This document shows, piece after piece, positions 116 through 42,315 of a stretch of DNA of 64,000 nucleotides. The notes beneath the pieces are model-generated. The model was not told the DNA's origin. It worked only from the letters and a program-made list of their open reading frames with translations, and did not search any database. Origin of the DNA: Syntrophaceae bacterium (GTDB taxonomy: Bacteria > Desulfobacterota > Syntrophia > Syntrophales > PHBD01); the NCBI GenBank assembly GCA_013177825.1, contig JABLXX010000001.1, positions 968,936 through 1,032,935 of the forward strand. Reading direction: 5' to 3'. The position numbers and the translations under genes are program-made. Positions within the stretch are counted from its first letter, which is position 1, and every line of letters begins with the position of its first letter.

Positions 116-152
116 GATGGAGGACAGAGAAAAAAGCAAGGAGGGGCGATTT

Positions 153-554
153 ATGAAGAACCTGTTGCGTGTATGCGTTGCAATGATCATCGTATGTGTC
201 TTTCTAGCCGGTCAGGCCTTCGCCGGTGAGGCGAAAGATGCGGCATCCGAAAACAAGAGGGCCGTTGTCTATAGTTTTCTGGGTACGGTTGCAAAGATGG
301 ATGCGGGAAAGAAGACGATCACCATCCATGCCGTTGCAGACAAGGAAGAATATCTCAGGGAGGGCGACATGCCGTTCCGGGAGTTCAGTGCCGACGGGCA
401 AGAGATCACCTTTGACGTCTCGAAGGCGGTGTTTCTGGGGGTTAACGACATCAGCAACATCAAGGGACTCCAGCTTGTCAGGGTTGGTTATGACAAAGAG
501 GGAGGAGCGTATATGGCTCACACGGTATTGGTTTTGACGAAGAGGAAGCCCTGA
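153..554 (+). CDS. Small secreted protein, family B copy 1 (no mature cysteines)
   Basis: A 133-aa protein. The ATG at 153 is chosen over an in-frame ATG at 117 because AAGGAGGGG lies just upstream and the protein then starts with a normal Sec signal peptide (MKNLL..., hydrophobic core, AFA-G cleavage site near residue 23-24). The mature part is about 110 residues, without cysteine, rich in predicted beta strands (VYSFLGTV, KTITI, EITFDV, LQLVRVGYD) and ends in a basic KRKP. A close paralogue lies at 1560-1955, and a decayed third copy lies near 2488-2612. Both intact copies sit directly before a family A Cys-rich gene, so a paired role (partner, chaperone or carrier) is possible but unproven. 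I recognise no named domain. Confidence 0.85.
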   Translation: MKNLLRVCVAMIIVCVFLAGQAFAGEAKDAASENKRAVVYSFLGTVAKMDAGKKTITIHAVADKEEYLREGDMPFREFSADGQEITFDVSKAVFLGVNDISNIKGLQLVRVGYDKEGGAYMAHTVLVLTKRKP

Positions 555-706: not shown

Positions 707-1060
707 ATGAAAAAAACGAGCTGCATCGTGGCAATGGCGTTTTTCTGTCTCCTGCTTGCCGGCATATCCGCAAACTCAGCCTGGGCTATGGGCTGTTCGG
801 ATCGGGAAGTCTCCTGCTGTATTGACGGCAAGCAATCGGAGACGGTGGCCAAGACGAAATTCAGCAGGTGCTGGAGCTGGAAAGACTTTGGATGCGTGCC
901 GTGCCATGGAGGGGGAAAATGGAGTTATGCCGCCGAATGGTGCAATGACAACTACGGTCAGTGCCAGGGGAAGTGCAAAGCGTGTTTTCATGATCCTGGT
1001 GATCGGTGTGTGCTGAAACTGACCTGCTGGGACAAGGACGGCCGGCAGACGTGTCAATGA
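707..1060 (+). CDS. Cys-rich small secreted protein, family A copy 1
   Basis: A 117-aa protein behind AAGGAGG. It has a Sec signal peptide (MKKTSC, hydrophobic stretch, SAWA cleavage site near residue 27) and a mature part of about 90 residues with 13 cysteines: GC, CC after six residues, CWSW, C-x2-C, WCN, then QC-x3-C-x2-C and three C-terminal cysteines. Conserved non-Cys blocks are CCIDG, CWSW and EWCN. There is no transmembrane segment after the signal and no lipobox. This is a disulfide-rich periplasmic or exported protein of unknown function; toxin, antimicrobial, adhesive or redox roles are all possible. It lies in a co-directional array just upstream of a TolC/MacAB-like export operon. 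Confidence 0.88.
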   Translation: MKKTSCIVAMAFFCLLLAGISANSAWAMGCSDREVSCCIDGKQSETVAKTKFSRCWSWKDFGCVPCHGGGKWSYAAEWCNDNYGQCQGKCKACFHDPGDRCVLKLTCWDKDGRQTCQ

Positions 1061-1082: not shown

Positions 1083-1463
1083 ATGAGGGAAGCGGGCTGC
1101 ATTATGGCGATGGCGGTTTGCTTTATCCTGCTTGCCGATGCATCCATAAACTCAAAGGAGGCTGTCGGCTGTCAGGATAAGAAGGTCTCCTGCTGTATCG
1201 ACGGCGATGAATCGAAGACGGTGGCCAAGACCAAATTCACCATGTGCTGGAGTTGGAGCAAGGCTGAATGTCGGCCGTGTAATGGCGAAGGGCAATGGGC
1301 TTATATTTCTCTATGGTGCAATGTCAACTACATCAATGAATGCCACGGAACATGCCAGGGGTGCTTCAAAGTGCAATATCCCTTTTTTATGACACCGCAG
1401 GCTTCAGAGGGAGATGACGGGATCTGCTGCGTTGATAATGAAGGCCATAAGCGTTGTCGATGA
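1083..1463 (+). CDS. Cys-rich small secreted protein, family A copy 2
   Basis: A 126-aa paralogue of the gene at 707, starting 22 bases after it behind GGGAGG. The N-terminus is a signal peptide with a weaker cleavage site (SINSKEA before VGC). The mature part again has 13 cysteines and the blocks CCIDG, CWSW and WCN. It differs from its siblings by about ten extra residues between the C-x3-C-x2-C cluster and the C-terminus (around YPFFMTPQASEGDD), and two C-terminal cysteines have become adjacent (ICC). This is the most divergent complete copy, consistent with diversification after duplication. It is the only family A copy here not preceded by a B gene or B remnant. Function unknown. Confidence 0.85.
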   Translation: MREAGCIMAMAVCFILLADASINSKEAVGCQDKKVSCCIDGDESKTVAKTKFTMCWSWSKAECRPCNGEGQWAYISLWCNVNYINECHGTCQGCFKVQYPFFMTPQASEGDDGICCVDNEGHKRCR

Positions 1464-1559
1464 TTCGGGCTTCAACCACGGGAGGCAATGGAGTCGGGAG
1501 GTAAACCGTCACTGAAGAGGGTGATCAGGATCAACATTCATTTCGAGGAGGAGCGATTG

Positions 1560-1955
1560 ATGAGAGAGCTGTCGCGTGTATGCATTGCATTGGTCATCGC
1601 ATGTGCCTTTCTGGCAGGCCAGGCCTTTGCCGGTGAGGCTAAGGATAAGGCATCCGGAAATCAGAGGACCGTGATTTACAGTTTTCTGGGCGCAGTGACG
1701 GGGATGGATGCGGGGGAAAAGACGATCACCATCAATGCCGTTGCGGACAGGGAAGATTACCTGACGGAAGGTGACATGCCGTTCCGGGAGTTCAGTGCCG
1801 AGGGGAAAGAGATCACCTTGGATATCTCGAAGGTGATGTTTCTGGGGGTGGAAGACATCAAAGGAATCAAGGCACTCCAACTCGTCAGGGTCGGTTATGA
1901 CAAGAAGGGCGAAGTGCATGTTGCTCACACGGTGTTGGTTCTGTCAAAGCGGTAG
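1560..1955 (+). CDS. Small secreted protein, family B copy 2
   Basis: A 131-aa close paralogue of 153-554; most positions are the same by eye, including the blocks GDMPFREFSA, QLVRVGYDK and AHTVLVL. The ATG at 1560 is preferred over an in-frame ATG at 1488 because GAGGAG precedes it and a Sec signal peptide then begins at once (cleavage after AFA near residue 23). There is no cysteine in the mature part. It lies between family A copies 2 and 3, repeating the B-then-A order of the first unit. Function unknown. Confidence 0.85.
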   Translation: MRELSRVCIALVIACAFLAGQAFAGEAKDKASGNQRTVIYSFLGAVTGMDAGEKTITINAVADREDYLTEGDMPFREFSAEGKEITLDISKVMFLGVEDIKGIKALQLVRVGYDKKGEVHVAHTVLVLSKR

Positions 1956-2116: not shown

Positions 2117-2476
2117 ATGAAGAAAACCGGCTGCGTCGTAGCGATAGCTGTTATCTTTGTCCTGCTGGCCGGCATATCGGCAAACCCTGCCTATGCAGTC
2201 GGCTGCAAAAACCACTATATCGCCTGCTGCATTGATGGCAAGTCGAAGAAGATGGTGGCGGATACTTACTTCACCATGTGTTGGAGTTGGAAGTCGGCTA
2301 AGTGCAAACCCTGTCACGGCGGAGGGAAATGGAGTTGGTTTGCCGAGTGGTGTAACGAAAACTATGCCCAATGCGAGGGAAATTGCCAGGGGTGCTGGTG
2401 GGATCAAGACGTTGATTGTCTGCGAGGATTTCGATGCTATGACAAACATGGGAAAAATACGTGTCATTGGCCGTGA
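2117..2476 (+). CDS. Cys-rich small secreted protein, family A copy 3
   Basis: A 119-aa paralogue behind AAGGAGG. It has a Sec signal peptide (MKKTGC..., AYA cleavage near residue 27) and a mature domain with 13 cysteines in the family arrangement: GC, ACCIDG, CWSW, C-x2-C, EWCN, C-x3-C-x2-C and three near the C-terminus. The C-terminus is extended by HWP after the last cysteine. It is strongly basic in the first half of the mature part (KSKKMV) compared with its siblings. It is paired with the family B gene just upstream. Function unknown. Confidence 0.87.
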   Translation: MKKTGCVVAIAVIFVLLAGISANPAYAVGCKNHYIACCIDGKSKKMVADTYFTMCWSWKSAKCKPCHGGGKWSWFAEWCNENYAQCEGNCQGCWWDQDVDCLRGFRCYDKHGKNTCHWP

Positions 2477-2650: not shown

Positions 2651-2753
2651 TTTTCGTGATTCAAGATGATGTTACGGTACCCTTGGTTGAGAAGTGCTCC
2701 TTTTCACTGGGAGACCTTTGGTGGTGAATTCGAGAAAACAAGGAGGAAGCAGC
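2651..2753 (+). promoter_or_regulatory. Duplicated leader of family A gene, copy 4, with hairpin
   Basis: Third copy of the leader. The hairpin core is GTG-CTCCTTTT-CAC (2694-2707) in place of GCG...CGC at 645-658: a C-G pair replaced by U-A at the same place. It is followed by GGGAGACC, GGTGGTGAA and the ribosome-binding site AAGGAGG before ATG 2754. Confidence 0.45.
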
Positions 2754-3101
2754 ATGAAAAAATCGGGCTGCACCGTGATCATGGCGGTTTTCTTTCTCCT
2801 GATTGTGGGTATATCCGCAAACCCGGCTTGTGCCCTCGACTGTGGGGAGTTGGAAGTCCTCTGCTGTATTGATGGAAAATTATCGCATACCATTGCCAAG
2901 ACAACATTCAGCATGTGCTGGAGTTGGAGCAAGTTTGAATGTGTGCCGTGTCATGGGGGGCATAAATTTTCGTATCTTGCGAAGTGGTGTAACGAGAACA
3001 ACGACCAATGCGAAGGGAAATGCAGAGGGTGTTATTCGCATTTTCGTTATTGCTATGGACGAATCTGTGTGGATACAGACGGAAAAGAATATTGCCAATG
3101 A
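2754..3101 (+). CDS. Cys-rich small secreted protein, family A copy 4
   Basis: A 115-aa protein. ATG 2754 is preferred to an upstream in-frame ATG at 2694, which lies inside the duplicated leader; AAGGAGG precedes 2754. Sec signal peptide MKKSGC... with cleavage around residue 27 (NPACA). The mature part has the family's 13 cysteines and the blocks CCIDG, CWSW, C-x2-C and KWCNEN. It is the last member of the array; the TolC-like gene of the export operon starts 227 bases downstream in the same direction. Function unknown. Confidence 0.87.
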   Translation: MKKSGCTVIMAVFFLLIVGISANPACALDCGELEVLCCIDGKLSHTIAKTTFSMCWSWSKFECVPCHGGHKFSYLAKWCNENNDQCEGKCRGCYSHFRYCYGRICVDTDGKEYCQ

Positions 3102-3209: not shown

Positions 3210-3328
3210 AACACGGCGTTTTCCGGTCATATCCCGAAAAAAAGGAAAAGGTCAGTCTTCTCGTGGGCTCAAGCTTTTTTTTATAAACATGAGAAATGGG
3301 CAGGAAACATGACCTTCAAGCGAGGATA

Positions 3329-4903
3329 ATGGAATCACGCCTGTCGTTATCGACATCTTCGCGAATCAGCATCCTGTGCCTTGTCATTTTTCTCTTCGTA
3401 TTCTTTGCCTCTTCGGTTCCGGCGCTCTGCGAAGAGAAACAGGAGATTCCAAGCGTACAACAGGGATTGAAGAAACTGACCCTGTCCGATTGTGTTTTTC
3501 TTGCCTTGCAGAACAACGTTTCCATCCAGACCGCTTACCTGGACAGAATCTCCCAACGGATGGAGCTCCGCGTCGCCGAGGACAAGTTTGTTCCCCAGCC
3601 GAGCCTCAGCTTTTCGACCCGCGCCACGTCCACCTACAATACGGACGGCACCCGGACCCGGGCATCCAATCAGGACGGGTTGTTTGCAACGACCTTGAAC
3701 CTTCCCACGGGCGGATCCGTAATCTTCAGCTGGGACAACCCGGCGACGAAAGCGGACATCGGCCAGGACTATGGCTACAGCTCAGGCTGGAGCGTCCAGT
3801 TCATCCAGCCACTCCTGAAAAATGCCGGCGTGGATGTCGCCACGCAGTCCATCCGGCAGGCCAGGGTGGCCGAGGAACAGTACATCCTCGACCTGAAAGA
3901 CACGCTGGCCACCACGATCACGACGACCATCACAGACTACCGGGCCTATGTGTCGGCCCTGCGCAGTTACGACATTCAAGCCAAGGGGCTGGAGACGGCC
4001 CGCCGAACCCTGGAGACGAACCAGGCGCTCATCGATGCCGGGCGCATGGCCCAGACGGAAATTCTCCAGGCGGAGAACGACGTGGCCAATCGTGAGTTGA
4101 GCGTCATAACCGCCAGGAACGACGTCGACTCGGCGCGGCTTACTCTTCTCCAGGTCCTCAACCTGGACAAGAACACAGACTTCCTGCCCGTTGAAGAAGG
4201 AGAGCAGTTTGTTCCTCCTCCATCCCTGGAAGAAGCCATTGCCGTGGCCCTGAAAAACCGTTCCGATTACATCAAGGCATTGCAAAACCTGGAGCTGGCC
4301 AAGCTGGACCTGGCCGTCAACAAACGAAATCTTCTCTGGGATCTATCGCTGGTGACAAACGTCGGACGGACCGGGACAGGCGATACCTACCGGACGGTGC
4401 TGGCGGACCAGCAGATAAGGAAAAGCGACTGGGATGTCTGGCTTCAGCTCAACATTCCCCTGAGAGACCTGCAATCGGAAAGCAGTTATGTCGCCGCAAA
4501 AGTGGCCCGCGAAAAGGCGGGCATCAACCTCAAGAAACTGGTGAGCGACATTGAAATCGATGTCCAGAATAAAATCAGGAATATCGACGTAAATTACAGG
4601 AGCTATGTGCTTGCGAAAAAGGGGCGGGAGCTTTCGGAGCGAAAACTGGAAATCGAACGGGAAAAACTGCGGCTGGGACGAACGACCAACTTCCAGCTTG
4701 TGTCTTTTCAGAACGACGTCCTCGATCAGCAGACGATGGAACTGCTGGCCCTGATCACGTATCTCAACTCCCTGACGGACCTGGATCAGTCGCTGGGGGT
4801 TACGCTCGACCGCTGGAGCATCAGCGTCAAGCGCGAGGATCAAAATGTCAGGCTGCCGGAGGACCGGAAGCAGGAAGTCAACGAGAAACTGAAGGCGAAA
4901 TAA
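3329..4903 (+). CDS. TolC-family outer membrane efflux protein
   Basis: A 524-aa protein from ATG 3329, chosen because AGCGAGG precedes it and a signal peptide follows directly (hydrophobic ILCLVIFLFVFF, ending about residue 35). An in-frame ATG at 3296 is the alternative. The body shows the two-fold repeat of long amphipathic helices typical of TolC/OEP channels, including LTLSDCVFLALQNN near the start and EEAIAVALKNRSDY in the middle, each opening a helical repeat. The trimer would form an outer membrane channel and periplasmic tunnel. It is the first gene of an operon with adaptor, ATPase and permease (gap of 13 bases to the next gene), so it is a dedicated channel for that pump. Confidence 0.9.
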   Translation: MESRLSLSTSSRISILCLVIFLFVFFASSVPALCEEKQEIPSVQQGLKKLTLSDCVFLALQNNVSIQTAYLDRISQRMELRVAEDKFVPQPSLSFSTRATSTYNTDGTRTRASNQDGLFATTLNLPTGGSVIFSWDNPATKADIGQDYGYSSGWSVQFIQPLLKNAGVDVATQSIRQARVAEEQYILDLKDTLATTITTTITDYRAYVSALRSYDIQAKGLETARRTLETNQALIDAGRMAQTEILQAENDVANRELSVITARNDVDSARLTLLQVLNLDKNTDFLPVEEGEQFVPPPSLEEAIAVALKNRSDYIKALQNLELAKLDLAVNKRNLLWDLSLVTNVGRTGTGDTYRTVLADQQIRKSDWDVWLQLNIPLRDLQSESSYVAAKVAREKAGINLKKLVSDIEIDVQNKIRNIDVNYRSYVLAKKGRELSERKLEIEREKLRLGRTTNFQLVSFQNDVLDQQTMELLALITYLNSLTDLDQSLGVTLDRWSISVKREDQNVRLPEDRKQEVNEKLKAK

Positions 4904-4916
4904 TCAAGGGACAGCC

Positions 4917-6701
4917 ATGAACCAGGATCCGATCATCTACAGAAACATTCTGGAAAACATGACCGACGGGGTCATGACCGTTTCGCTCGACGGCCGCATC
5001 ATGACGTTCAACGAGGCGGCGGAACGGATTCTGGACCTCCGTGCCGAGGATGTCCTCGGCCGGTCGATGAGCGAAGTGTTCCTCGGAAGGGAAGGGAACG
5101 ATGCCTTCAACCAGGCCATCCTGGACGCCGTTTACGATGAGGCGGTGACTCAGAACGGCATCGTCCTGTATACGGCCGGGGAAAAGCGCATCGTTCTTTC
5201 TGTCACGACCTCTTTTCTCGGGTCCGATGAGACGGGACAAAAAAAGAAGGCTGCCGTCATTGCGGTCTTCAGCGACCGGACGGAAGTGGAGGCTCTTCGG
5301 GAGACGGAGCACGACCTCACGGAGGAGATCAAGGCGAAGCACAGGGAGCTGCAGACGTCCTATTCCGAACTGGAGGAGTCCAACACAAGTCTCAAGGCCG
5401 CCCTGAAAAAAGTGCAGATGATCCGCATTGCCGCGACGGCACTGGTGCTTCTTCTCTTCCTGTCCATCGGGATCCTGACGTGGATAAAAGGCACACCGGG
5501 AAGGTCCGGGCAGTCTTCAACCACAGATTCGCAAGCGGGCGCAGTGAAGACGTACAAGGTGGCACTGCAACCCCTTGTCGACAAGATCTCTCTCCGGGGT
5601 ACTCTCAAACCGATCCAGGTCGTGAACGTGACGAGCCCCTTCGCGGGCACGGTCACGGAAAAGCTTTTCGAATACGGCCAGTCCGTCACCAGGGGGCAGC
5701 TTCTTATGCGCCTCGATACCAGAGAAATCGAATCGAAATGCCGCGAAGCGAAATCAGCTTTCATCAAGGCAAATGAAAAAAGAAAGGAAATGAAGGACTG
5801 GAAGAACACGGATGAAATGGTCAAGGCGATGCGCTCCCTGGACAAGGCGAAGAGATCCTATGAAGAAACGGAAACTCTTTTCAAGAAAGGCATCGTGTCG
5901 GCCGACGAGTACAACAACGAAAAGAACAATTACGAGAACGAGCTCCTGACGTACAAGACCACAAAGGCCAAAGGCGAGGGTGATAACGTAACCCTGGCAA
6001 AACTCGACTATTACAATGCAAGAGCGAAACTCGCCGATCTTGAAAATCAGCTGGGAAAAGCCAATGTCCTCGCTCCGGTGTCCGGAACGGTCATCCTCAT
6101 GGACACCGTGGGGGATAAGGACAGGAAAGGAAAGGCCGTCGAAAAGGGGACTTCTTTCGGCGAGGGGGAGATCATGCTGGCCGTCGGTGACACGACCGGC
6201 CTGTCGGTTTCCACCGAAGTGGACGAGATCGAGGTGACGAAGATCAAGAAGGGTCAGCAGGCCATCATCACGGGAGACGCTTTCCCGGATGTGACCCTCA
6301 AGGGAAGTGTCGATCACATTTCGTCCCAGGCGAACGTCAAGGGAGGGGAAGGAGGAGCGAAGAAAGCGGCTACCTTCGAAATTCTGATCCGGGTGGACAG
6401 GCTTCTCCCGGAAGTGGCGGACAAGATCCGTCTCGGCATGTCCGCCAATCTGTCCATCGAGATCCTGAACAAGCCCGACGGCATCCTGGTGCCCATCGGG
6501 GCCGTGCAGACGGATGGGGCGGATCGCTACGTCATGTTGAAGGAGGCGGGAAAGCGGGAGGCGAAGCGGGTGAACGTGAAGACGGGCATTACGACTCTCG
6601 ACTCCGTGGAGATTTTGCAGGGATTGAAAATCGGCGATGAAGTCCTGGTAAGGGAGGAAGCGGTCCGGAATGTCCATGCTGAGGACAGTGAACATCCATA
6701 A
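4917..6701 (+). CDS. PAS-domain / HlyD-MacA-type membrane-fusion protein hybrid
   Basis: A 594-aa protein with an unusual order of parts. Residues about 5-125 are a PAS domain (IYRNILENMTDGVMTVSLDG, FNEAAERILDL, VLGRSMSEVF). Residues about 126-167 are a charged coiled coil. One transmembrane helix follows (about 169-190, AATALVLLLFLSIGILTWI). The rest is a standard periplasmic adaptor: lipoyl half-motif (VTSPFAGTV), long alpha-hairpin (about 275-375), second lipoyl half (NVLAPVSGTV near 381), beta-barrel and membrane-proximal domain. MacA-type adaptors normally have only a short cytoplasmic tail, so the PAS domain would sit in the cytoplasm next to the ATPase. It may tune transport to a ligand or redox signal (inference). 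The 3' end overlaps the ATPase gene by 32 bases. Confidence 0.9.
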   Translation: MNQDPIIYRNILENMTDGVMTVSLDGRIMTFNEAAERILDLRAEDVLGRSMSEVFLGREGNDAFNQAILDAVYDEAVTQNGIVLYTAGEKRIVLSVTTSFLGSDETGQKKKAAVIAVFSDRTEVEALRETEHDLTEEIKAKHRELQTSYSELEESNTSLKAALKKVQMIRIAATALVLLLFLSIGILTWIKGTPGRSGQSSTTDSQAGAVKTYKVALQPLVDKISLRGTLKPIQVVNVTSPFAGTVTEKLFEYGQSVTRGQLLMRLDTREIESKCREAKSAFIKANEKRKEMKDWKNTDEMVKAMRSLDKAKRSYEETETLFKKGIVSADEYNNEKNNYENELLTYKTTKAKGEGDNVTLAKLDYYNARAKLADLENQLGKANVLAPVSGTVILMDTVGDKDRKGKAVEKGTSFGEGEIMLAVGDTTGLSVSTEVDEIEVTKIKKGQQAIITGDAFPDVTLKGSVDHISSQANVKGGEGGAKKAATFEILIRVDRLLPEVADKIRLGMSANLSIEILNKPDGILVPIGAVQTDGADRYVMLKEAGKREAKRVNVKTGITTLDSVEILQGLKIGDEVLVREEAVRNVHAEDSEHP

Positions 6702-7365
6702 GACGTATCCGGTCGGTCCCACGGAAGTGAACGTCCTCAAGGGCATTTCCCTGGAAGTCGAGAAGGGGGAATTCCTGTCCATCGTGGGAGCGTCGGGCAG
6801 CGGCAAGTCCACGCTGATGCATATTCTCGGTCTTCTCGAACAGCCGACATCGGGAGAGTATTTTTTCGAGGATGCCCGGATCCGGTACGAGGACGACCGC
6901 GAGCTCTCCATTCTCCGCAACCGGAAGATCGGATTCGTGTTCCAGCAGTATTGCCTCCTGCAGCGGCTGACGGCCCTGGATAACGTGGGAATTCCCCTCA
7001 TTTACCGGGGGATGGGCAAACCGGAAATCCGGGAGCGCTCCATGGCCTACCTACAGAAAGTAGAAGTAGCGGATCGGGCGCATCACCGGCCGAACGAGAT
7101 GTCCGGGGGACAGCAGCAACGCGTGGCCATCGCCCGGGCCCTGGTGGGAAGTCCGGCCCTGATCCTCGCCGACGAGCCCACGGGTGCCCTGGACAGCCGG
7201 ACCGGCCAGGAGATCATGGATCTCTTCCGAAAGCTCAACGAAGAGGAAGGAATCACGATTATCGTCATCACCCACGATCTCAAGATCGCCGCTCAATGCC
7301 GGCGCAGCATAGAGATCACCGACGGGCTCGTCACCCCTCCGGCGGTTGACGGGAATCCTCATTGA
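6670..7365 (+). CDS. MacB/LolD-type ABC transporter ATPase
   Basis: A 231-aa nucleotide-binding subunit. Walker A is GASGSGKST, the Q-loop region reads FVFQQYCLL, the signature is MSGGQQQRVAIARAL, and Walker B is LILADEPTGALD with the H-loop in VITHD. The length and the GALDSRTGQEIMDLF stretch place it with the MacB/LolD/FtsE group. It overlaps the adaptor gene by 32 bases and precedes the permease by 39 bases. E. coli MacB is one polypeptide with ATPase and membrane domain; here they are separate genes. It would power periplasm-to-outside export through the TolC-like channel. Confidence 0.95.
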   Translation: MSMLRTVNIHKTYPVGPTEVNVLKGISLEVEKGEFLSIVGASGSGKSTLMHILGLLEQPTSGEYFFEDARIRYEDDRELSILRNRKIGFVFQQYCLLQRLTALDNVGIPLIYRGMGKPEIRERSMAYLQKVEVADRAHHRPNEMSGGQQQRVAIARALVGSPALILADEPTGALDSRTGQEIMDLFRKLNEEEGITIIVITHDLKIAAQCRRSIEITDGLVTPPAVDGNPH

Positions 7366-7404: not shown

Positions 7405-8577
7405 ATGATCCTGAAAGCAAACATTTCCGAAGCGTTTACAAGCCTTGCAAACGCCCGACAGCGGACGATCCTTGCCATTATCGGCATCGTCATCGGCATC
7501 GGATCCGTCATCGGCATGGTCTCCATCGGCTCCATTGCGGAAAACGAGGCCCTCAAACAGTTCAAGGACATGGGTGTGGACGTCGTCATGGTGAGGCTGA
7601 CGGAGAACAGTCCATCGGCAAACGTGACCCTACGGGACATCACGGCCCTGAAAGAAAAGGAGAGCTCGATCCTCGATGTCGCGCCTTACCTGCGATCCAG
7701 CGGCACATTCAGCATCGGCAAGAAGAGCATCTACCTGGAGGAGATGGGTGTGACCTCCAGCTTCTTCGACATGAACAAGATCCGGCTGGCGGAGGGGCGA
7801 TTCATCTCGGACCTCGACGAGAACCGCTATTTCTGTGTCATCGGGAAGGAAACGGCGGCTTTCCTCCGGGGGATCGGATTGAATCCTCTCCTTGGCAGTC
7901 AGTTTCCTCTCGGAAACAGGATTTTCACGATTGTCGGTGTTCTCGACAACGTCTCGGATGGAGGGATGAGGCCTTACGGAGTCAACAGCTCCGTGATCAT
8001 GCCCATTACCACGGCCGGGCGGTTCTTCGAGAAAAGCGACATCGACAGCTTTCTTGCCCTGGTCGGGAACACCGTCTCCCCGGCCCAGGCCAAGGTGGAT
8101 ATCCAGAATTACTTCCGGATGAAATCGCGGGACCTCAAAGTCAGGGTCACCACGGCGGAAGAGCTGATCGCCAACATGAAGAAGCAGATGCAGATCTTCT
8201 CGCTGCTTCTCGGCGCCATCGGCAGCATCTCCCTGATCGTGGGAGGCATCGGCGTCATGAACGTCATGCTCATCTCGGTTACGGAGCGCCGGATGGAGAT
8301 CGGTCTCCGGCGGGCGCTGGGAGCCCAGCAGGGCGACATCCAGAGCCAGTTCATCATGGAGGCATTGGTTCTGTGCCTCGTCGGCGGCGTGATCGGGATT
8401 GTCCTCGGAGTCATCGTCTCCTTCGTTTTTGCAAAGGTCTCCCACTGGGAATTCCTGATCTCGTACGGATCCATTATTCTCGGTTTCGGCGTGGCCGCGG
8501 CGGTGGGCGTTTTTTTCGGCTATTATCCGGCGCGCTCCGCCGCCAGGCTGGACCCCATCAAGGCCTTGCGTTCCTGA
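7405..8577 (+). CDS. MacB-type ABC transporter permease (FtsX-like)
   Basis: A 390-aa membrane protein with the MacB layout: one N-terminal transmembrane helix (about 22-42, ILAIIGIVIGIGSVIGMVSI), a large periplasmic domain (about 50-265), then three C-terminal helices. The FtsX-family block GGIGVMNVMLISVTERRMEIGLRRALGA follows the second helix. MacB-type pumps do not carry substrate across the inner membrane; they drive export of periplasmic substrates (macrolides, the Cys-rich enterotoxin STII, lipopeptides) through TolC. That fits a substrate already secreted by Sec, such as the Cys-rich proteins encoded upstream. Last gene of the operon. Confidence 0.93.
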   Translation: MILKANISEAFTSLANARQRTILAIIGIVIGIGSVIGMVSIGSIAENEALKQFKDMGVDVVMVRLTENSPSANVTLRDITALKEKESSILDVAPYLRSSGTFSIGKKSIYLEEMGVTSSFFDMNKIRLAEGRFISDLDENRYFCVIGKETAAFLRGIGLNPLLGSQFPLGNRIFTIVGVLDNVSDGGMRPYGVNSSVIMPITTAGRFFEKSDIDSFLALVGNTVSPAQAKVDIQNYFRMKSRDLKVRVTTAEELIANMKKQMQIFSLLLGAIGSISLIVGGIGVMNVMLISVTERRMEIGLRRALGAQQGDIQSQFIMEALVLCLVGGVIGIVLGVIVSFVFAKVSHWEFLISYGSIILGFGVAAAVGVFFGYYPARSAARLDPIKALRS

Positions 8578-9840: not shown

Positions 9841-11345
9841 TGCGCGTTCTCCTTTCTGCTCATCTCCCGCAGGATGGCCCGCGCCGCCGCGGCCCCCGAA
9901 GTGAGGGTCGGCTGGTAACCCGGCATGCCATACCACGCCCCGGTGCCATAAAGACCTTTGACGGGCGGCTTGGGGTTCCGGAACAGGGTCGAATCCTTGA
10001 CATGCTGCTCGAACCCGTAGGGACTCCCGCCGGGGTGGCCCAGGTAGCGCATGTGGGTGATCGGCGTGGCGACCTCCATCTCTTCGATGTTCGCCGTGAA
10101 GCCCGGGAAGTGCGGTTCGATCCTGCGGAGAATGGTCTCGGCGGAGCGGTACTTCTCGGCGGCGTACTCCTCCGGAGGCACCCGGAGCCACGGCTCGGCG
10201 TACTTCATCGTCACGATGGCCGCCTGGCAGGTCCCCACCGGCGAGAAATCCGGGTCCGACACGTCGTAGCAGCTCATGATGAGCGGCGGCTCGCTAACGT
10301 CAAGGGTCCGGCAAAGGGCGAAGTCGCGGTCCATATCGGTGGACTGGCAGATGAAGTTGGTCGTCTCCGAGATGGAGACGGCCTCGGGGAGGCAGCGGAG
10401 CCCTGCATAGACCGTCAGGAACGAGGTGCCCACGACGGCCCCGCGGACCTGCTGCAAAGCCTCTGCCTGTCCGTCCCCTCCGTCCAGGAGACCGGCAAAG
10501 GTGGCCACCGCGGAGGCGTTGGAGACGACGTACCGGGTGGTGATCTCCTCTCCCCGGTCCGTCACGACGGCCTGCACGGCGCCGTCCCGTGTAACGATGC
10601 GCTCCGCCCCGCAGGAGAAGCGGATCTCGCCGCCGGCGTCCAGAACGGCTGCAGCCAGCGCGTTGGAAAGGGCCTGCGAACCGCCCTTGATGTGCCAGGG
10701 CTTGAACTCGATATAGGCGAAGAGAAGCGCCGCCAGGTCGCTGAAGGCAAGCAGGCGCGGCGGCAACCCCATGTAGCCCCAGTAGCCGGCGATGGTGAGC
10801 TTCAGGTAGGGGTCGCGGAAATGCTCGTCGATAACGCTCTGGGAATCCCGGAATGCGTACTGGAAGTACAGGGGGTACTTCTCGGGCGTCACCTCGGGGT
10901 CCCGGAGGTAGAAGGCGCCGATGACCTCCTGGAAGAACCGGTACACCAGGTCGAAGAACTGCTCAATCCCCTGCTTTTCATCGGGGAACCGCTCCTGAAG
11001 AACCTGGACGATGCCGGCCCGGTTTGCCGGCAGGGTCAGGTCCACTTTGTCCGGGACGATAAAACGGAACAGGTGCTCCATCTCCACGAATTCGAGCTTG
11101 GCGAGAACGCCCAGGTTCTGCAGGAGTCCCCGTAGAGGACCGGGAAACTCGGGGCGCCCGAGGCCTGAGAGCTGATGGAGGGAGACCTCGAACTCGAATC
11201 GGCCCCGGCAGAAGCTCGTAGCGCATCCTCCTGGGATGTTGTGGCGTTCCAGGACCAGCACCCGTGCACCGCCCCGGGCCAGCGCGGCGGCTGCGGCAAG
11301 CCCTCCATTGCCGGCCCCGATGACGATGGCGTCATAATCCGTCAT
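9837..11345 (-). CDS. Phytoene-desaturase/RetSat-like FAD-dependent oxidoreductase
   Basis: A 502-aa flavoprotein. The N-terminus has the dinucleotide-binding fold VIGAGNGGLAAAAALARGG followed by LERHNIPGGCATSF, the typical CrtI/retinol-saturase start. The C-terminus closes with GLYGTGAWYGMPGYQPTL and GAAAARAIL, the FAD-binding tail of the family. Members saturate, desaturate or isomerise polyenes or other hydrophobic substrates; the substrate here is unknown. No carotenoid gene such as crtB lies nearby, so carotenoid synthesis is not supported. The 4-base overlap with a ferredoxin-type flavin reductase suggests the pair is a two-component reductase. Confidence 0.87.
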   Translation of the reverse strand: MTDYDAIVIGAGNGGLAAAAALARGGARVLVLERHNIPGGCATSFCRGRFEFEVSLHQLSGLGRPEFPGPLRGLLQNLGVLAKLEFVEMEHLFRFIVPDKVDLTLPANRAGIVQVLQERFPDEKQGIEQFFDLVYRFFQEVIGAFYLRDPEVTPEKYPLYFQYAFRDSQSVIDEHFRDPYLKLTIAGYWGYMGLPPRLLAFSDLAALLFAYIEFKPWHIKGGSQALSNALAAAVLDAGGEIRFSCGAERIVTRDGAVQAVVTDRGEEITTRYVVSNASAVATFAGLLDGGDGQAEALQQVRGAVVGTSFLTVYAGLRCLPEAVSISETTNFICQSTDMDRDFALCRTLDVSEPPLIMSCYDVSDPDFSPVGTCQAAIVTMKYAEPWLRVPPEEYAAEKYRSAETILRRIEPHFPGFTANIEEMEVATPITHMRYLGHPGGSPYGFEQHVKDSTLFRNPKPPVKGLYGTGAWYGMPGYQPTLTSGAAAARAILREMSRKENAQ

Positions 11346-11373
11346 TCTTTGCTCCTTTCTTTCCGATACCTTC

Positions 11374-38584: not shown

Positions 38585-38989
38585 TCATTTCCACCCAAAC
38601 GTGCAGGTATGGGTGGTGTTTCCATTTTCGTCCTTGCTTTCTACAACACCTTTCCCCAAAACATCATAGACCTCAACCCACCCGTGTTTTGCGACATCGA
38701 CTCGACAAACACCTTTACTGCTCCAGGTAAAGACGTCTACGTACCCTCCCTTCCCTGGTCGGCATTCATGGTTCCCTGCATTGATCTTCCAGTCATTATG
38801 GCAGAACCAGCCGCAGTAAAAGTTTACGATGATCTCTCTCGCATCTGTTTTGTTGTAAAAGCAGGATGCCTCGGCGTCTTTGGGGATCATCATGGTTCCC
38901 GTCATCAGGAAGATGACGATGATCGCCGCCCACATGGTTCCGTTCTCCGGCAACCCCCGACGGACAGTTTTTGTCAATGCATTCTTCAT
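38585..38989 (-). CDS. Small secreted Cys-rich protein, family C copy 1
   Basis: A 134-aa protein. The N-terminus is a Sec signal peptide with a long basic n-region (about 18 residues), a hydrophobic core (MWAAIIVIFLMTGTMMI) and cleavage at AEA-S, leaving a mature domain of about 93 residues that starts SCFYNKTD. Six cysteines. Family blocks: CGWFCHNDWKINAG, CRPGKGG, VAKHGWVEV and ESKDENGN-x4-C-x-F. No lipobox (no hydrophobic residue at -3) and no further membrane segment. Function unknown. It is the last gene of the seven-copy array, before the terminator, and its ribosome-binding site GGAGAGTCGAGTC deviates most from the family leader. Confidence 0.87.
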   Translation of the reverse strand: MKNALTKTVRRGLPENGTMWAAIIVIFLMTGTMMIPKDAEASCFYNKTDAREIIVNFYCGWFCHNDWKINAGNHECRPGKGGYVDVFTWSSKGVCRVDVAKHGWVEVYDVLGKGVVESKDENGNTTHTCTFGWK

Positions 38990-39134
38990 GACTCGACTCT
39001 CCTTTTCGCTGCCTTCGTTCCGAGTCGGACAGATTCAGTCCGTTCAACCGAACGGAGACAATCTTGAAAGCCAGCATCCATACGAGGGAACATCTTTTGC
39101 CCGCTTGGACGTGATTTCAAGCGGGTATCAAAAT

Positions 39135-39536
39135 CTACCAATCCAATACGCATGTCTGAGTCGTGTTTCCATTATCGTCTTTGCTTTCAATAACGGCTTT
39201 ACTCGAAACATCATGGACCTCGACCCAACCGTGCTTTGCAACATCGACTTGACAATACCCCTGACTGCTGGAGGCGAAGACGTGCACGAACCCTCCCTTG
39301 CCCGGTCGGCATTCGTGTCCCCCTGCATTAATCTTCCAGTCGTTATGGCAGAACCAACCGCAGTAGAAGTTAAACGTTACATCCTTTTTGTCTGTTTTGT
39401 TGTAAAAGCAGGATGCAGCGGAGTCCTTGGGAAGAATCATGGTTCCCGTTAACAGGGTGATGACGAAGACAGCCGTCCACATTGTTCCTGTCCTTCGCAA
39501 TCCGCCGCCGACTGTTTTCGGAAAGATGTTTTTCAT
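39135..39536 (-). CDS. Small secreted Cys-rich protein, family C copy 2
   Basis: A 133-aa paralogue. ATG 39536 follows the conserved leader AAGGAGGATCGAGCC; a longer in-frame start at 39599 would add 21 residues inside the upstream gene. Signal peptide with cleavage near SAA-S; the mature domain starts SCFYNKTD with six cysteines and no CC pair, like copy 1, its closest relative by eye. Blocks CGWFCHNDWKINAGG, CRPGKGG, KHGWVEV and SKDDNGN are intact. It starts only 25 bases after the stop of copy 3, the tightest spacing in the array, so the two are likely co-translated. Function unknown. Confidence 0.87.
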   Translation of the reverse strand: MKNIFPKTVGGGLRRTGTMWTAVFVITLLTGTMILPKDSAASCFYNKTDKKDVTFNFYCGWFCHNDWKINAGGHECRPGKGGFVHVFASSSQGYCQVDVAKHGWVEVHDVSSKAVIESKDDNGNTTQTCVLDW

Positions 39537-39561
39537 GGCTCGATCCTCCTTATTCCGGATC

Positions 39562-39987
39562 TCATGGGGTAGGGGTCGGCTTATCTTTATGCCAGTCAAA
39601 TGTGCATGTCCGTGTTATGTTTCCATTGTCGTCTTTGCTTACGACAACGCCCTTGTCTCCGGCATGAGTGACTTCAACCCAGCCGTGTTTTGCAACCTCG
39701 ATGTCGCAACTGTGCAATTTTTCAGAAGGCCTGATGGTTGCGATTCCTCCCTTTCCCGGCCTGCACTTGTGCTGATCGGGGTTGATCGTCCACTTGTTCC
39801 CGCAGAACCAGCCGCAATTGAAGGATACTGCGATATCGCCGTCCGCTTTGTTGTAGAAGCAGCATGCCTTGGCGTCTCTAGGGATCATCATGGCACCTGT
39901 TATCAGGGAGACGGCGATGACCGCCACCCACATCGTTCCTTTCATTCGCAACCCTCGACTCATTGCTTTCAATAATATGTTTTTCAT
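39562..39987 (-). CDS. Small secreted Cys-rich protein, family C copy 3
   Basis: A 141-aa paralogue behind GAGGAGGATCGAGCC. Signal peptide (MWVAVIAVSLITGAMMI core, cleavage AKA-C); the mature domain begins CCFYNKAD and has seven cysteines. Blocks CGWFCGNKWTIN, CRPGKGG, VAKHGWVEV and SKDDNGN are present. It is the only copy with a C-terminal tail beyond the FDW ending (HKDKPTPTP), which could be a linker or processing remnant. Function unknown. Confidence 0.87.
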   Translation of the reverse strand: MKNILLKAMSRGLRMKGTMWVAVIAVSLITGAMMIPRDAKACCFYNKADGDIAVSFNCGWFCGNKWTINPDQHKCRPGKGGIATIRPSEKLHSCDIEVAKHGWVEVTHAGDKGVVVSKDDNGNITRTCTFDWHKDKPTPTP

Positions 39988-40221
39988 GGCTCGATCCTCC
40001 TCTTTCGTTCCGCGTCAGCCAAATTCAATTCATTCGGCTTTTCGTTGATATTCTCATATCCGGCATCGACGTTGGTGGGTATGCATACCCGTTTTGTCGA
40101 GATGACCGGCAACTGTTAACCGTTCTTTGAAAAGAGGTTCTGGCTTTGAATCGATCTTGAATGAAAAGGTCAAATATCTTGCCCGCCGGACGCTCAATGG
40201 CGGTTTTGATTGCCAGGAGAT

Positions 40222-40265
40222 TGGAGACGGCCACGGCCCCGCCTTATGCCTCGTGGCCGTCTCCA
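40222..40265. other. Perfect 14-bp stem-loop inside the family C array
   Basis: TGGAGACGGCCACG (40222-40235), 16-base loop, CGTGGCCGTCTCCA (40252-40265), all fourteen pairs perfect. It lies 36 bases past the stop of copy 4 in a 313-base gap. There is no T-run on either strand, so it is not a standard intrinsic terminator; an mRNA-stability hairpin, a processing site or a REP-like repeat are possible. The rest of the gap (39988-40221) holds only the degenerate leader of copy 3. Confidence 0.5.
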
Positions 40266-40300
40266 CAACATCAGTGTACTCGGGAGGCCTGACAGCTGTT

Positions 40301-40720
40301 CTACTGAGAAAAAACCCAATCGAAATAGCATTTGTGGACGACGACACCATCGGCATTTTTGCTTTCCACTCGACCCTCACCCCCTGGAGGATAGGCATGG
40401 GTGATGTCAACCCAGCCATGCTTTTCAACAGATACATCGCAGGAAGCGACATTTCCGATGCGCCTGACGTTCGCAACCCCTCCTTTTCCCGGCCGGCACT
40501 TGTGTTCCCCGGGTTCGAGAGTCCAGTTGTTTCCACAGAACCAGCCGCAGTTGAAGGAAATATGCATCTTGCCGTCACTCTTGTTGTAGAAGCAGCATGC
40601 CTCGGAGTCCCTGGAAATCAGTACAGTTGCCGCGATCAATACAATCGCAAAGGTAACCATCCACATCGCTCCTCTGTTACCCAGCCGTTCGCAGATTGGT
40701 TTCAACCATTCATGCTTCAT
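40301..40720 (-). CDS. Small secreted Cys-rich protein, family C copy 4
   Basis: A 139-aa paralogue. ATG 40720 follows the conserved leader AAGGAGGATCGAACC; an in-frame start at 40780 would add 20 residues. Signal peptide core MWMVTFAIVLIAATVLI, cleavage SEA-C; mature start CCFYNKSD; seven cysteines. Blocks CGWFCGNNWTLEPGEH, CRPGKGG and EKHGWVDI are intact. The segment after HGWVDI is longer than in siblings (THAYPPGGEGRV), and SKDDNGN reads SKNADGV, so this loop is variable. C-terminal extension VFSQ. Function unknown. Confidence 0.87.
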   Translation of the reverse strand: MKHEWLKPICERLGNRGAMWMVTFAIVLIAATVLISRDSEACCFYNKSDGKMHISFNCGWFCGNNWTLEPGEHKCRPGKGGVANVRRIGNVASCDVSVEKHGWVDITHAYPPGGEGRVESKNADGVVVHKCYFDWVFSQ

Positions 40721-40845
40721 GGTTCGATCCTCCTTTCCAGTAATTTCACTCCGTGTCAGACAGCCCGCTCTGCTCGACAAGACGGAGGTGTTTTGCAGCC
40801 CGGCCTCGGTAAATGGCCTGTGTTATTGAGTAGCGTCACAGTTCC

Positions 40846-41250
40846 TTATTTGCCCCAGTCGAACTCGCACACATTGGTCGTGTTTCCATTTTCATCTTTG
40901 CTTTCCGCAACGCCTTTATCCTGGACATGATAGACGTTGACCCAGCCGTGTTTTGCAACCGGCAGAAGCTCACAAAAATCTTTTTTATTATGGTAGAGGG
41001 TGACGCATCCTTCCTTTCCCGGCCGGCATTTATGTTCCCCAGGGCTAAGATCCCAGACGTTCCAGCAGAATACGCCGCAGGAAAACTTGACCGTGATCTT
41101 GTCATCCGCTGAGTTGTAAAAGCAGCACGCCTCCGCTCTCACAGGGATCGTCAGATATCCCGCGATCAGTGCAACAGCGACGATAACCGTCCACATCGCT
41201 CTCTTCTCCGGCATCCACCAACAAACCGGTTTCGACAATCTGTTCATCAT
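40846..41250 (-). CDS. Small secreted Cys-rich protein, family C copy 5
   Basis: A 134-aa paralogue behind GGAGGATCGAGCC. Signal peptide core MWTVIVAVALIAGYLTI, cleavage AEA-C; mature start CCFYNSAD. Eight cysteines: the usual set plus an extra one in RPGKEGC, where the others have CRPGKGG. It shares CGVFCWN with copies 6 and 7 rather than CGWFC of copies 1-4, which splits the array into two subgroups. Blocks VAKHGWVNV and SKDENGN are present. Function unknown. Confidence 0.87.
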   Translation of the reverse strand: MMNRLSKPVCWWMPEKRAMWTVIVAVALIAGYLTIPVRAEACCFYNSADDKITVKFSCGVFCWNVWDLSPGEHKCRPGKEGCVTLYHNKKDFCELLPVAKHGWVNVYHVQDKGVAESKDENGNTTNVCEFDWGK

Positions 41251-41383
41251 GGCTCGATCCTCCCTTCCGCTGATTCATTTGCCGGTAGACAATCATCCTG
41301 TCTGCAGCGCACAATGTTGCCCTCGGAATCCGGCATCGGCAAATCGTCAGCTCTACTGAATAATGCCGCCTCGTTCTTAATCA

Positions 41384-41803
41384 TCACCAGTCAAAGGTGC
41401 AGGTCTCGATCGTGTTTCCGTTTTCATCTTTGTTTTCCACAACGCCCTTGTTTATGCCCTGAGCCGAAACATGATGGACCTCGATCCAGCCGTGTTTCTT
41501 AACCCAGATGTAATTGCATGCATGGTAACCATGTTTGGATTTCGAGATCGACGTGGCGTTTCCTCCCTTTCCCGGCCGGCAGGCGTGATCTCCGGGTTCA
41601 ATATCCCAGTCGTTCCAGCAGAATACGCCGCAGCTAAAAGTAACGTGAATCTTCGTTTCGGTATGGTTGTAGAAGCAACATGCTTCGGTGTTCTTTGGAA
41701 ACATTAAGGTTCCTGTGATCAAAGCCATGGCGATGAACGCCATCAACATCACTCCCTTGTTTCGGGGCCCTCTGCAGACTGGATTCAACAATGTGCCCTT
41801 CAT
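41384..41803 (-). CDS. Small secreted Cys-rich protein, family C copy 6
   Basis: A 139-aa paralogue behind AAGGAGGATTGGGCC. Signal peptide core MLMAFIAMALITGTLMF, cleavage TEA-C; mature start CCFYNHTE; seven cysteines. CGVFCWNDWDIEPGDH and CRPGKGG are followed by a longer, Ser/Lys/His-rich variable segment (SISKSKHGYHAC) and KKHGWIEV. The loop before NKDENGN carries extra residues (SAQGIN). The divergence is concentrated in these two loops, while the framework is constant. Function unknown. Confidence 0.87.
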   Translation of the reverse strand: MKGTLLNPVCRGPRNKGVMLMAFIAMALITGTLMFPKNTEACCFYNHTETKIHVTFSCGVFCWNDWDIEPGDHACRPGKGGNATSISKSKHGYHACNYIWVKKHGWIEVHHVSAQGINKGVVENKDENGNTIETCTFDW

Positions 41804-41844
41804 GGCCCAATCCTCCTTTGCTGTGCTGGTGTCTTCTGTCAGAT

Positions 41845-41904
41845 AAACTCAATCTCCGTGCTGCGATTATGGAATAGATCAATTCATGCCGGTGGCAATG
41901 CTTG
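41845..41904. repeat. Duplicated intergenic block, copy 1 (family C array)
   Basis: A 60-base block upstream (minus strand) of copy 6. It matches 42356-42415 upstream of copy 7 at 52 of 60 positions, counted by eye. On the minus strand both contain TTGCC(A/G), 16 bases, TATTC(C/T), a possible promoter. More degenerate relatives occur upstream of copies 5, 3 and 1. The duplication unit of the array therefore includes the upstream region. Confidence 0.6.
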
Positions 41905-41910
41905 TTCATC

Positions 41911-42315
41911 TCATTTCACCCAGTCGAACGTACAGGAGTCGATGACGTTGGCGTTATCATCTTTGCTTAGGACGAGGCCTTTGTTTCCTGTACGGGTTAC
42001 TTCAACCCAACCATGTTTCTTGACGGTAGAGATATCGCATTTCTGTCCTGCCCTCCTGATCGTCGCGTCTCCCCCTTTTCCCGGGCGACACTTATGCTCC
42101 CCAGGCTCTAAATACCACGTATTTCCACAGAAAACCCCGCAACTGAATTCTGCATCGATGCCCCCCTTGTCCACCAGGTTATAGAAGCAGCATGCTTCGC
42201 TGACCCGCGGCGCGAGTCCGATTCCGACAACAATGGCCATGACAATAATTGTCGCCCACACCCATTGCTTTCTTTCCAACCGGCTGTCGTTGTTTGTCAT
42301 CAACATGTTCTTCAT
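41911..42315 (-). CDS. Small secreted Cys-rich protein, family C copy 7 (first in transcription)
   Basis: A 134-aa paralogue behind AAGGAGGATTGAGCC. The signal peptide is the most diverged (MKNMLMTNNDSRLERKQW, core VWATIIVMAIVVGIGL, cleavage SEA-C). Mature start CCFYNLVDKG; seven cysteines; CGVFCGNTWYLEPGEH, CRPGKGG, KKHGWVEV and SKDDNAN. It is the promoter-proximal member of the array. Upstream lie the duplicated block at 42356-42415 and the stop of the flavodoxin-type lipoprotein gene. Function unknown. Confidence 0.87.
   Translation of the reverse strand: MKNMLMTNNDSRLERKQWVWATIIVMAIVVGIGLAPRVSEACCFYNLVDKGGIDAEFSCGVFCGNTWYLEPGEHKCRPGKGGDATIRRAGQKCDISTVKKHGWVEVTRTGNKGLVLSKDDNANVIDSCTFDWVK

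Follow-up and report, generated by a model that had tools for sequence, protein, structure and literature searches.

In the window (the whole stretch of 64,000 nucleotides that was analysed) the gene for a sensor-adaptor protein stands in an operon with genes for a TolC-like channel, an ATPase and a permease, directly downstream of an array of genes for small secreted proteins. The features of this locus, and a second array further along the window, are as follows (aa, residues of the sensor-adaptor).

117..554, + strand: small secreted protein, not Cys-rich ('cluster 25'), interleaved in the array
707..1060, + strand: Sec-type Cys-rich small protein, array copy, candidate cargo
1083..1463, + strand: Cys-rich small protein, array copy
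1488..1955, + strand: cluster 25 protein, second copy in the window
2117..2476, + strand: Cys-rich small protein, array copy
2694..3101, + strand: Cys-rich small protein, array copy, probable start at 2754
3296..4903, + strand: TolC-like outer-membrane channel (OEP, E 1.1e-35), ending 13 bp before the adaptor gene
4917..6701, + strand: sensor-adaptor (PAS, coiled coil, transmembrane helix, MacA-type adaptor), 594 aa in one open frame
4938..5291, + strand: PAS domain, aa 8-125, ending in a D-x-T motif (aa 120-122)
5280..5417, + strand: cytoplasmic coiled coil or signalling-helix linker, aa 122-167
5418..5486, + strand: single transmembrane helix, aa 168-190, from hydropathy and a continuous helix in the model
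5544..6656, + strand: periplasmic adaptor part with barrel, lipoyl and alpha-hairpin regions, aa 210-580, from Pfam, NCBIfam, phmmer and the PDB match of the model
6670..7365, + strand: MacB/LolD-type ATPase (Pfam, NCBIfam), a separate gene overlapping the end of the adaptor gene by 32 bp
7405..8577, + strand: MacB-type permease (MacB_PCD and FtsX, Pfam), starting 39 bp after the ATPase gene
38585..42315, - strand: a further tandem array, encoding seven small Cys-containing proteins of Sec type and lying 30 kb away from the operon

The initial annotation, made from the letters alone, had described the sensor-adaptor as a PAS domain and coiled coil, a single transmembrane helix and a complete adaptor in one frame, and this layout is confirmed by Pfam, NCBIfam and AlphaFold. 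The PAS similarity that it left to a profile search is present in the N-terminal part, where four Pfam PAS models exceed their curated cut-offs; the matches in this region include PAS (1.1e-11, aa 8-70), PAS_9 (2.7e-8, aa 17-123) and PAS_4 (7.5e-8, aa 12-125), and the AlphaFold model has the PAS-type order of strands and helices at aa 5-120. Only the boundaries needed correction: the transmembrane helix lies at about aa 168-190, and the coiled-coil helix begins right at the PAS domain (about aa 122).

The adaptor part is matched by HlyD_D23 (4.5e-11) and HlyD_3 (1.5e-10), both above curated cut-offs, and the protein passes the NCBIfam model RND_mfp (TIGR01730) with 119.5 bits against a cut-off of 94.9. 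Its 51.0 bits to MacA sensu stricto (NF008606) fall far below the equivalog cut-off of 342, and on these profile scores the sensor-adaptor is MacA-like and not a MacA orthologue. With a mean pLDDT of 74 and a pTM of 0.34, the AlphaFold model can be read only for single domains, the domain arrangement being unreliable. The modelled adaptor domains resemble E. coli MacA (9qgy, 5nik), which is among the top PDB matches (E 8e-23 for the MacA of MacAB-TolC), and phmmer relatives with solved structures are 4dk0, 9qgy and 3fpp; the predicted hairpin, lipoyl and barrel regions have the fold that they have in MacA.

What the PAS domain could perceive is narrowed by its composition. No Cys, His or Trp was found in aa 1-125, and thus neither a LOV adduct nor a His-bound haem is possible. 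LOV-type light sensing, which needs a flavin-adduct Cys, and oxygen or redox sensing by a haem with an axial His are both ruled out, and with them most of the light or redox signal suggested by the initial annotation. The roles that remain are binding of a small ligand, binding of a partner protein, or a purely structural one. A profile of the PAS domain and coil, run against 154 genomes, gave E values below 1e-69 only for these adaptors, the next matches being at about 1e-15 to 1e-16. Two of these next-best relatives were opened and both are histidine kinases; such weak relatives give no functional hint. The domain is constrained: in the comparison of the window with a congener, dN/dS comes to 0.157 in the PAS domain and 0.155 in the adaptor, with 0.26 in the coil and 0.05 in the membrane helix, so that purifying selection acts as strongly on the PAS domain as on the adaptor.

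The coiled coil and the membrane helix form one unbroken helix in the AlphaFold model (aa 122-190). In all members measured, three to six basic residues stand just before the transmembrane helix, which places the N-terminus in the cytoplasm by prediction; a single N-terminal membrane helix with a cytoplasmic N-terminus, as in adaptors of this type, is thus predicted. Counted from the Asp of D-x-T to the Arg that borders the membrane, the linker of the window protein is exactly 50 residues long, as is that of every other core PAS member measured; in a distant clade (L097, L098, L104) it has 43 residues, one heptad fewer. For a further member, L105, the value of 43 was read by eye, and in L106 the measuring pattern picked a wrong anchor. 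In the alignment, the coil of the form that carries a GAF domain in place of PAS is 7 residues shorter than that of the PAS form. A change by one heptad is what a signal-transmitting coiled coil permits. In a survey of signalling helices (S-helices), these are about 40 residues long and follow PAS or GAF domains, and its text makes no mention of transporters (PMC1592074).

The partners of the sensor-adaptor are those of a MacB-type pump. The ATPase has Walker A, Q-loop and signature motifs by pattern and a Walker B motif (LILADEP) by eye, and it is accompanied, as in MacB, by a permease with MacB_PCD and FtsX; the two are encoded by separate genes (6670-7365 and 7405-8577) and not in the one polypeptide of MacB. 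Upstream of the channel gene, pattern matches to sigma-54 and sigma-70 promoters were ill-placed or no better than chance. In each of the 17 loci of the first comparison, and in nearly all of 13 further loci, the sensor-adaptor stands beside genes for channel, ATPase and permease; the ATPase was not picked out in L097.

Several of these loci have peculiarities of their own. In L098 (4942-7867), a distant second copy in genome G206, the order is adaptor, ATPase, permease and channel, with the channel gene last, and two tandem genes for small secreted Cys-containing proteins lie immediately upstream of the operon. An extra pair of MacB-type ATPase and permease genes precedes the PAS-adaptor operon in L053 (1-1862). 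In relatives from Syntrophorhabdus (L047, L049, L051, L052, L102, L103) a chagasin-type peptidase inhibitor is regularly encoded downstream of the permease (Inhibitor_I42, 5.8e-30, in L047), and a related gene occurs in L045.

The fusion is conserved across genera and is not a one-off. Among 60 relatives it was found at full length in independent assemblies with 93, 61, 61, 59 and 54 percent identity, which also bears out the view of the initial annotation that no frameshift or join artefact is involved. By a search with an alignment of the junction and adaptor, 17 of the 155 class genomes contain members (one branch of them with GAF), as do 12 of 395 genomes of a phylum sample, where the weakest match (G513) is an ordinary adaptor without the junction, and 3 of 295 genomes sampled from the phylum to which G534 belongs (recorded as Nitrospirota). 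The 16 convincing named loci come mostly from metagenome assemblies of Deltaproteobacteria, Syntrophales and Syntrophorhabdus, with two from Nitrospirae; the hosts are uncultured, mostly anaerobic bacteria. The genome of the window has no second adaptor in the operon and no second sensor-adaptor fusion elsewhere. Other long HlyD frames that were opened (L008, L030) proved to be ordinary adaptors with a frame overhang, not PAS-adaptors.

The sensor domain is PAS in most members and GAF in three (L015/L107, L056, L057), with Pfam PF01590 matching two members scanned at 8.6e-13 and 1.9e-13. The GAF members keep the same junction of coiled coil and transmembrane helix (...EExNxELxAALKKVQxIRxAAT). 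Two further members (L079/L100, L080/L101) are sensor-less and have a short coil only; their existence implies that the pump as such can do without the sensor. In a tree built from the adaptor part, the GAF members cluster in a single branch, which joins two PAS members with support 100/99; the sensor-less members have a branch of their own, so that three label changes suffice. On the simplest reading of this tree, whose root is uncertain and some of whose outgroup branches are long, PAS would be ancestral, with one swap to GAF and one loss. Judged from these alignments, the sensor is exchangeable on a largely conserved junction of coiled coil and membrane helix.

The array upstream of the operon provides candidates for the cargo. 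In the genome of the window it occupies contig positions 966920-972036 (L135 6921-12037), enters the window at its start and ends at the operon, directly upstream of the channel gene. It contains eight Cys-rich genes, all the copies of this genome, and three cluster 25 genes, arranged as three units of Cys, Cys and cluster 25 followed by two Cys-rich genes; the repeating three-gene unit appears to be a sign of tandem expansion. The Cys-rich proteins have Sec-type signal peptides, as judged by eye. The mature domain of the copy at 2117-2476 was modelled confidently and had no match in the PDB, and 8xku, a weak sequence match (E 0.02), was dismissed as a chance relative. This copy is 99.7 percent identical in DNA to L042 43-402 of a congener, the adjoining adaptor gene having a dS of about 0.21; such near-identity may reflect strong constraint, gene conversion or recent transfer.

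The Cys-rich family occurs in 7 of the 155 genomes of the class, and six of these seven have the operon, which is present in 17 of the 155 (hypergeometric p 4.6e-6, a value that overstates independence because the genomes are related). In G028 six copies lie beside the operon and one elsewhere, and in G066, G133 and G090 the single copy lies away from it. The family is confined to few related genomes, and other loci have different small secreted genes or none. Such genes adjoin the operon in L046, L098, L100 and L108, as paralogous pairs or triples in the first three. The second array in the window (38585-42315) shares the motif CCFYNK...CGxFCxNxW...HKCRPGKGG...KHGWV, and its profile has a weak match (1.3e-6) in L046, to a gene for a small secreted protein (12243-12638) that lies downstream of the operon by about 3 kb and itself has a paralogue at 11153-11620. 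On this sequence similarity, the second array is perhaps a second cargo family. Since MacB-type pumps export small Sec-delivered proteins (PMC7943197, PMC5985334), the Cys-rich proteins of the upstream array are likely the cargo of the pump.

From the architecture, operon, conservation, sensor exchange, linker rule, selection and neighbourhood, all read from sequence, we infer sensing, a direction of signalling, an effect on the ATPase and a cargo. With moderate confidence we propose that the adaptor's own cytoplasmic sensor gates a MacAB-TolC-type export of small proteins delivered by Sec. The suggestion of the initial annotation that the PAS domain could gate transport is thereby partly supported. 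A ligand or a partner protein would act on the PAS domain, or on GAF in one branch, and the change would be relayed via the D-x-T motif and the coiled coil of fixed length, as a continuous helix, into the membrane helix. The engagement of the MacB-type ATPase and permease by the adaptor would then shift, turning export up or down post-translationally and not only through the amount of pump made, and the Sec-delivered Cys-rich proteins of the upstream array would probably be picked up in the periplasm and expelled via the TolC-like channel. Control of the pump from the cytoplasmic end of the adaptor is plausible because stimulation of MacB depends on the cytoplasmic part of MacA and on its membrane helix, and because the DevB N-terminus, needed for export and not for binding, exerts control over the DevB pump (PMC5985334). 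By analogy, a sensor on a rigid, length-controlled helix seems well placed to gate a pump. Gating is counted against by a PAS domain that has no cofactor-type residue and belongs to a class whose members can be purely structural, by the poorly defined stoichiometry with which six PAS domains would fit a hexameric MacA around a dimeric MacB, by the weak inter-domain placement in the AlphaFold model, and by the sensor-less members.

In the first alternative, PAS and GAF are dimer or oligomer caps that aid the assembly of adaptor and ATPase and sense nothing. PAS and GAF domains both often dimerise, and this reading would also fit the lack of Cys, His and Trp and the short coil retained by the sensor-less members. 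We regard it as unlikely, if worth keeping in mind: the exchange of PAS and GAF, the D-x-T motif and the one-heptad linker rule are traits of sensor proteins, and for dimerising a plain coiled coil would suffice.

The second alternative comes from the genomic neighbourhood. In several lineages the operon is flanked by genes for a STAS protein (PF01740, 4e-21) and an RsbW-like kinase (HATPase_c_2, 6e-29): the pair lies upstream of the channel gene in eight loci (L046, L047, L049, L051, L052, L099, L102, L103), at a distance of about 12 bp in several of them, 83 bp downstream of the permease gene in L106, about 1.4 kb downstream of the operon in L108, and no more than 10 kb away in G012 and G791. 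As strong homologues of the kinase number only roughly one or two per genome, this adjacency is not expected by chance (1.1e-8 by a rough binomial for 6 of 27, six lineages being counted). A gene for a sigma-54 activator, with similarity read by eye, adjoins the operon in G791 and L048 and lies near it in L046 and G012. The sensor could thus be a docking platform, with signalling directed inward to report the state of pump or cargo, or with the STAS protein and the RsbW-like kinase acting on the PAS domain or the ATPase and controlling pump activity or gene expression. Precedents are RsbP, a protein of PAS, coiled coil and phosphatase that acts in the RsbV/RsbW switch (PMC3183031), and MlaB, a STAS protein that binds the ABC ATPase MlaF and without which the complex does not work (PMC7367683). 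We nevertheless hold this explanation improbable. The STAS/RsbW pair of the window's own genome is on another contig (C7), and no strong RsbW homologue was found in the GAF genomes searched or in the f36 genomes; neighbourhood is no proof of contact, related loci are not independent samples, and the pair may merely regulate transcription of the operon. Finally, the notion that the fusion arose artefactually or by accident in a single genome deserves practically no credence, as it is refuted by independent assemblies at 42 to 93 percent identity, the same gene order across loci and purifying selection on the PAS domain, with nothing found in its favour.

Gating by the cytoplasmic sensor thus stays our preferred explanation. 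More tentatively, and with some doubt, the exporter may double as a receptor, its interchangeable PAS and GAF domains coupling a cytoplasmic signal or the STAS/RsbW switch to the gate of a MacB-type pump on the periplasmic side of the membrane. If true, direct post-translational control of protein export via the adaptor would be a form of regulation not described before; a PAS domain on a MacA-type adaptor, or an exchange of sensors, was not found reported in the open-access literature. The membrane helix of MacA has not been seen, and the structural basis of MacB stimulation is therefore lacking (PMC5985334). A family of adaptors that share one conserved helix and bear PAS, GAF or no sensor would be a natural swap set for pump control, addressing how adaptors pass information between the periplasm and the MacB ATPase. 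It would also offer modular sensors for controllable protein export, and it points to uncharacterised small secreted proteins of anaerobes.

Among known systems, MacAB-TolC of E. coli (MacA structures 5nik, 9qgy and 3fpp) shares with the system described here a single-helix adaptor with hairpin, lipoyl and barrel regions, a MacB_PCD/FtsX permease, a TolC-like channel and, as proposed here, the pick-up of cargo in the periplasm. It differs in that MacB is not split and in that MacA has a short cytoplasmic tail instead of a sensor of 120 residues and a coil of 46. The small-protein exporters Aat/Cex and MacAB (PMC7943197, PMC5985334) likewise combine a MacB-type pump with Sec-delivered small proteins, which is proposed here for the array; no sensor domain is described there, and the Aat substrate is lipidated, whereas the cargo here is a candidate. 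In DevBCA-HgdD of Anabaena the pump is also of the MacB type and export is controlled by the N-terminus of DevB, as we propose for the sensor-adaptor, but the system exports glycolipids and no sensor domain is described for it (PMC5985334). Precedent for a sensor on an HlyD-type protein comes from the GAF-HlyD-biotin_lipoyl proteins reported in 2015 beside SecA_DEAD and Peptidase_M50 genes, for which the authors suggest a sensory role (PMC4452313). These share a cytoplasmic-type sensor on an HlyD-type protein, but their operon partners are different, and the passages of that report consulted describe no MacB-type ATPase or permease partner, no PAS form and no exchange of sensors. The GAF loci found here (L056, L057, L107) have OEP, ATPase and permease as partners and not the operon with SecA_DEAD and Peptidase_M50. 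Finally, RsbP and the S-helix sensor proteins (PMC3183031, PMC1592074) have the same succession of PAS or GAF, coiled coil and output domain, the output in the present case being the membrane adaptor of an exporter.
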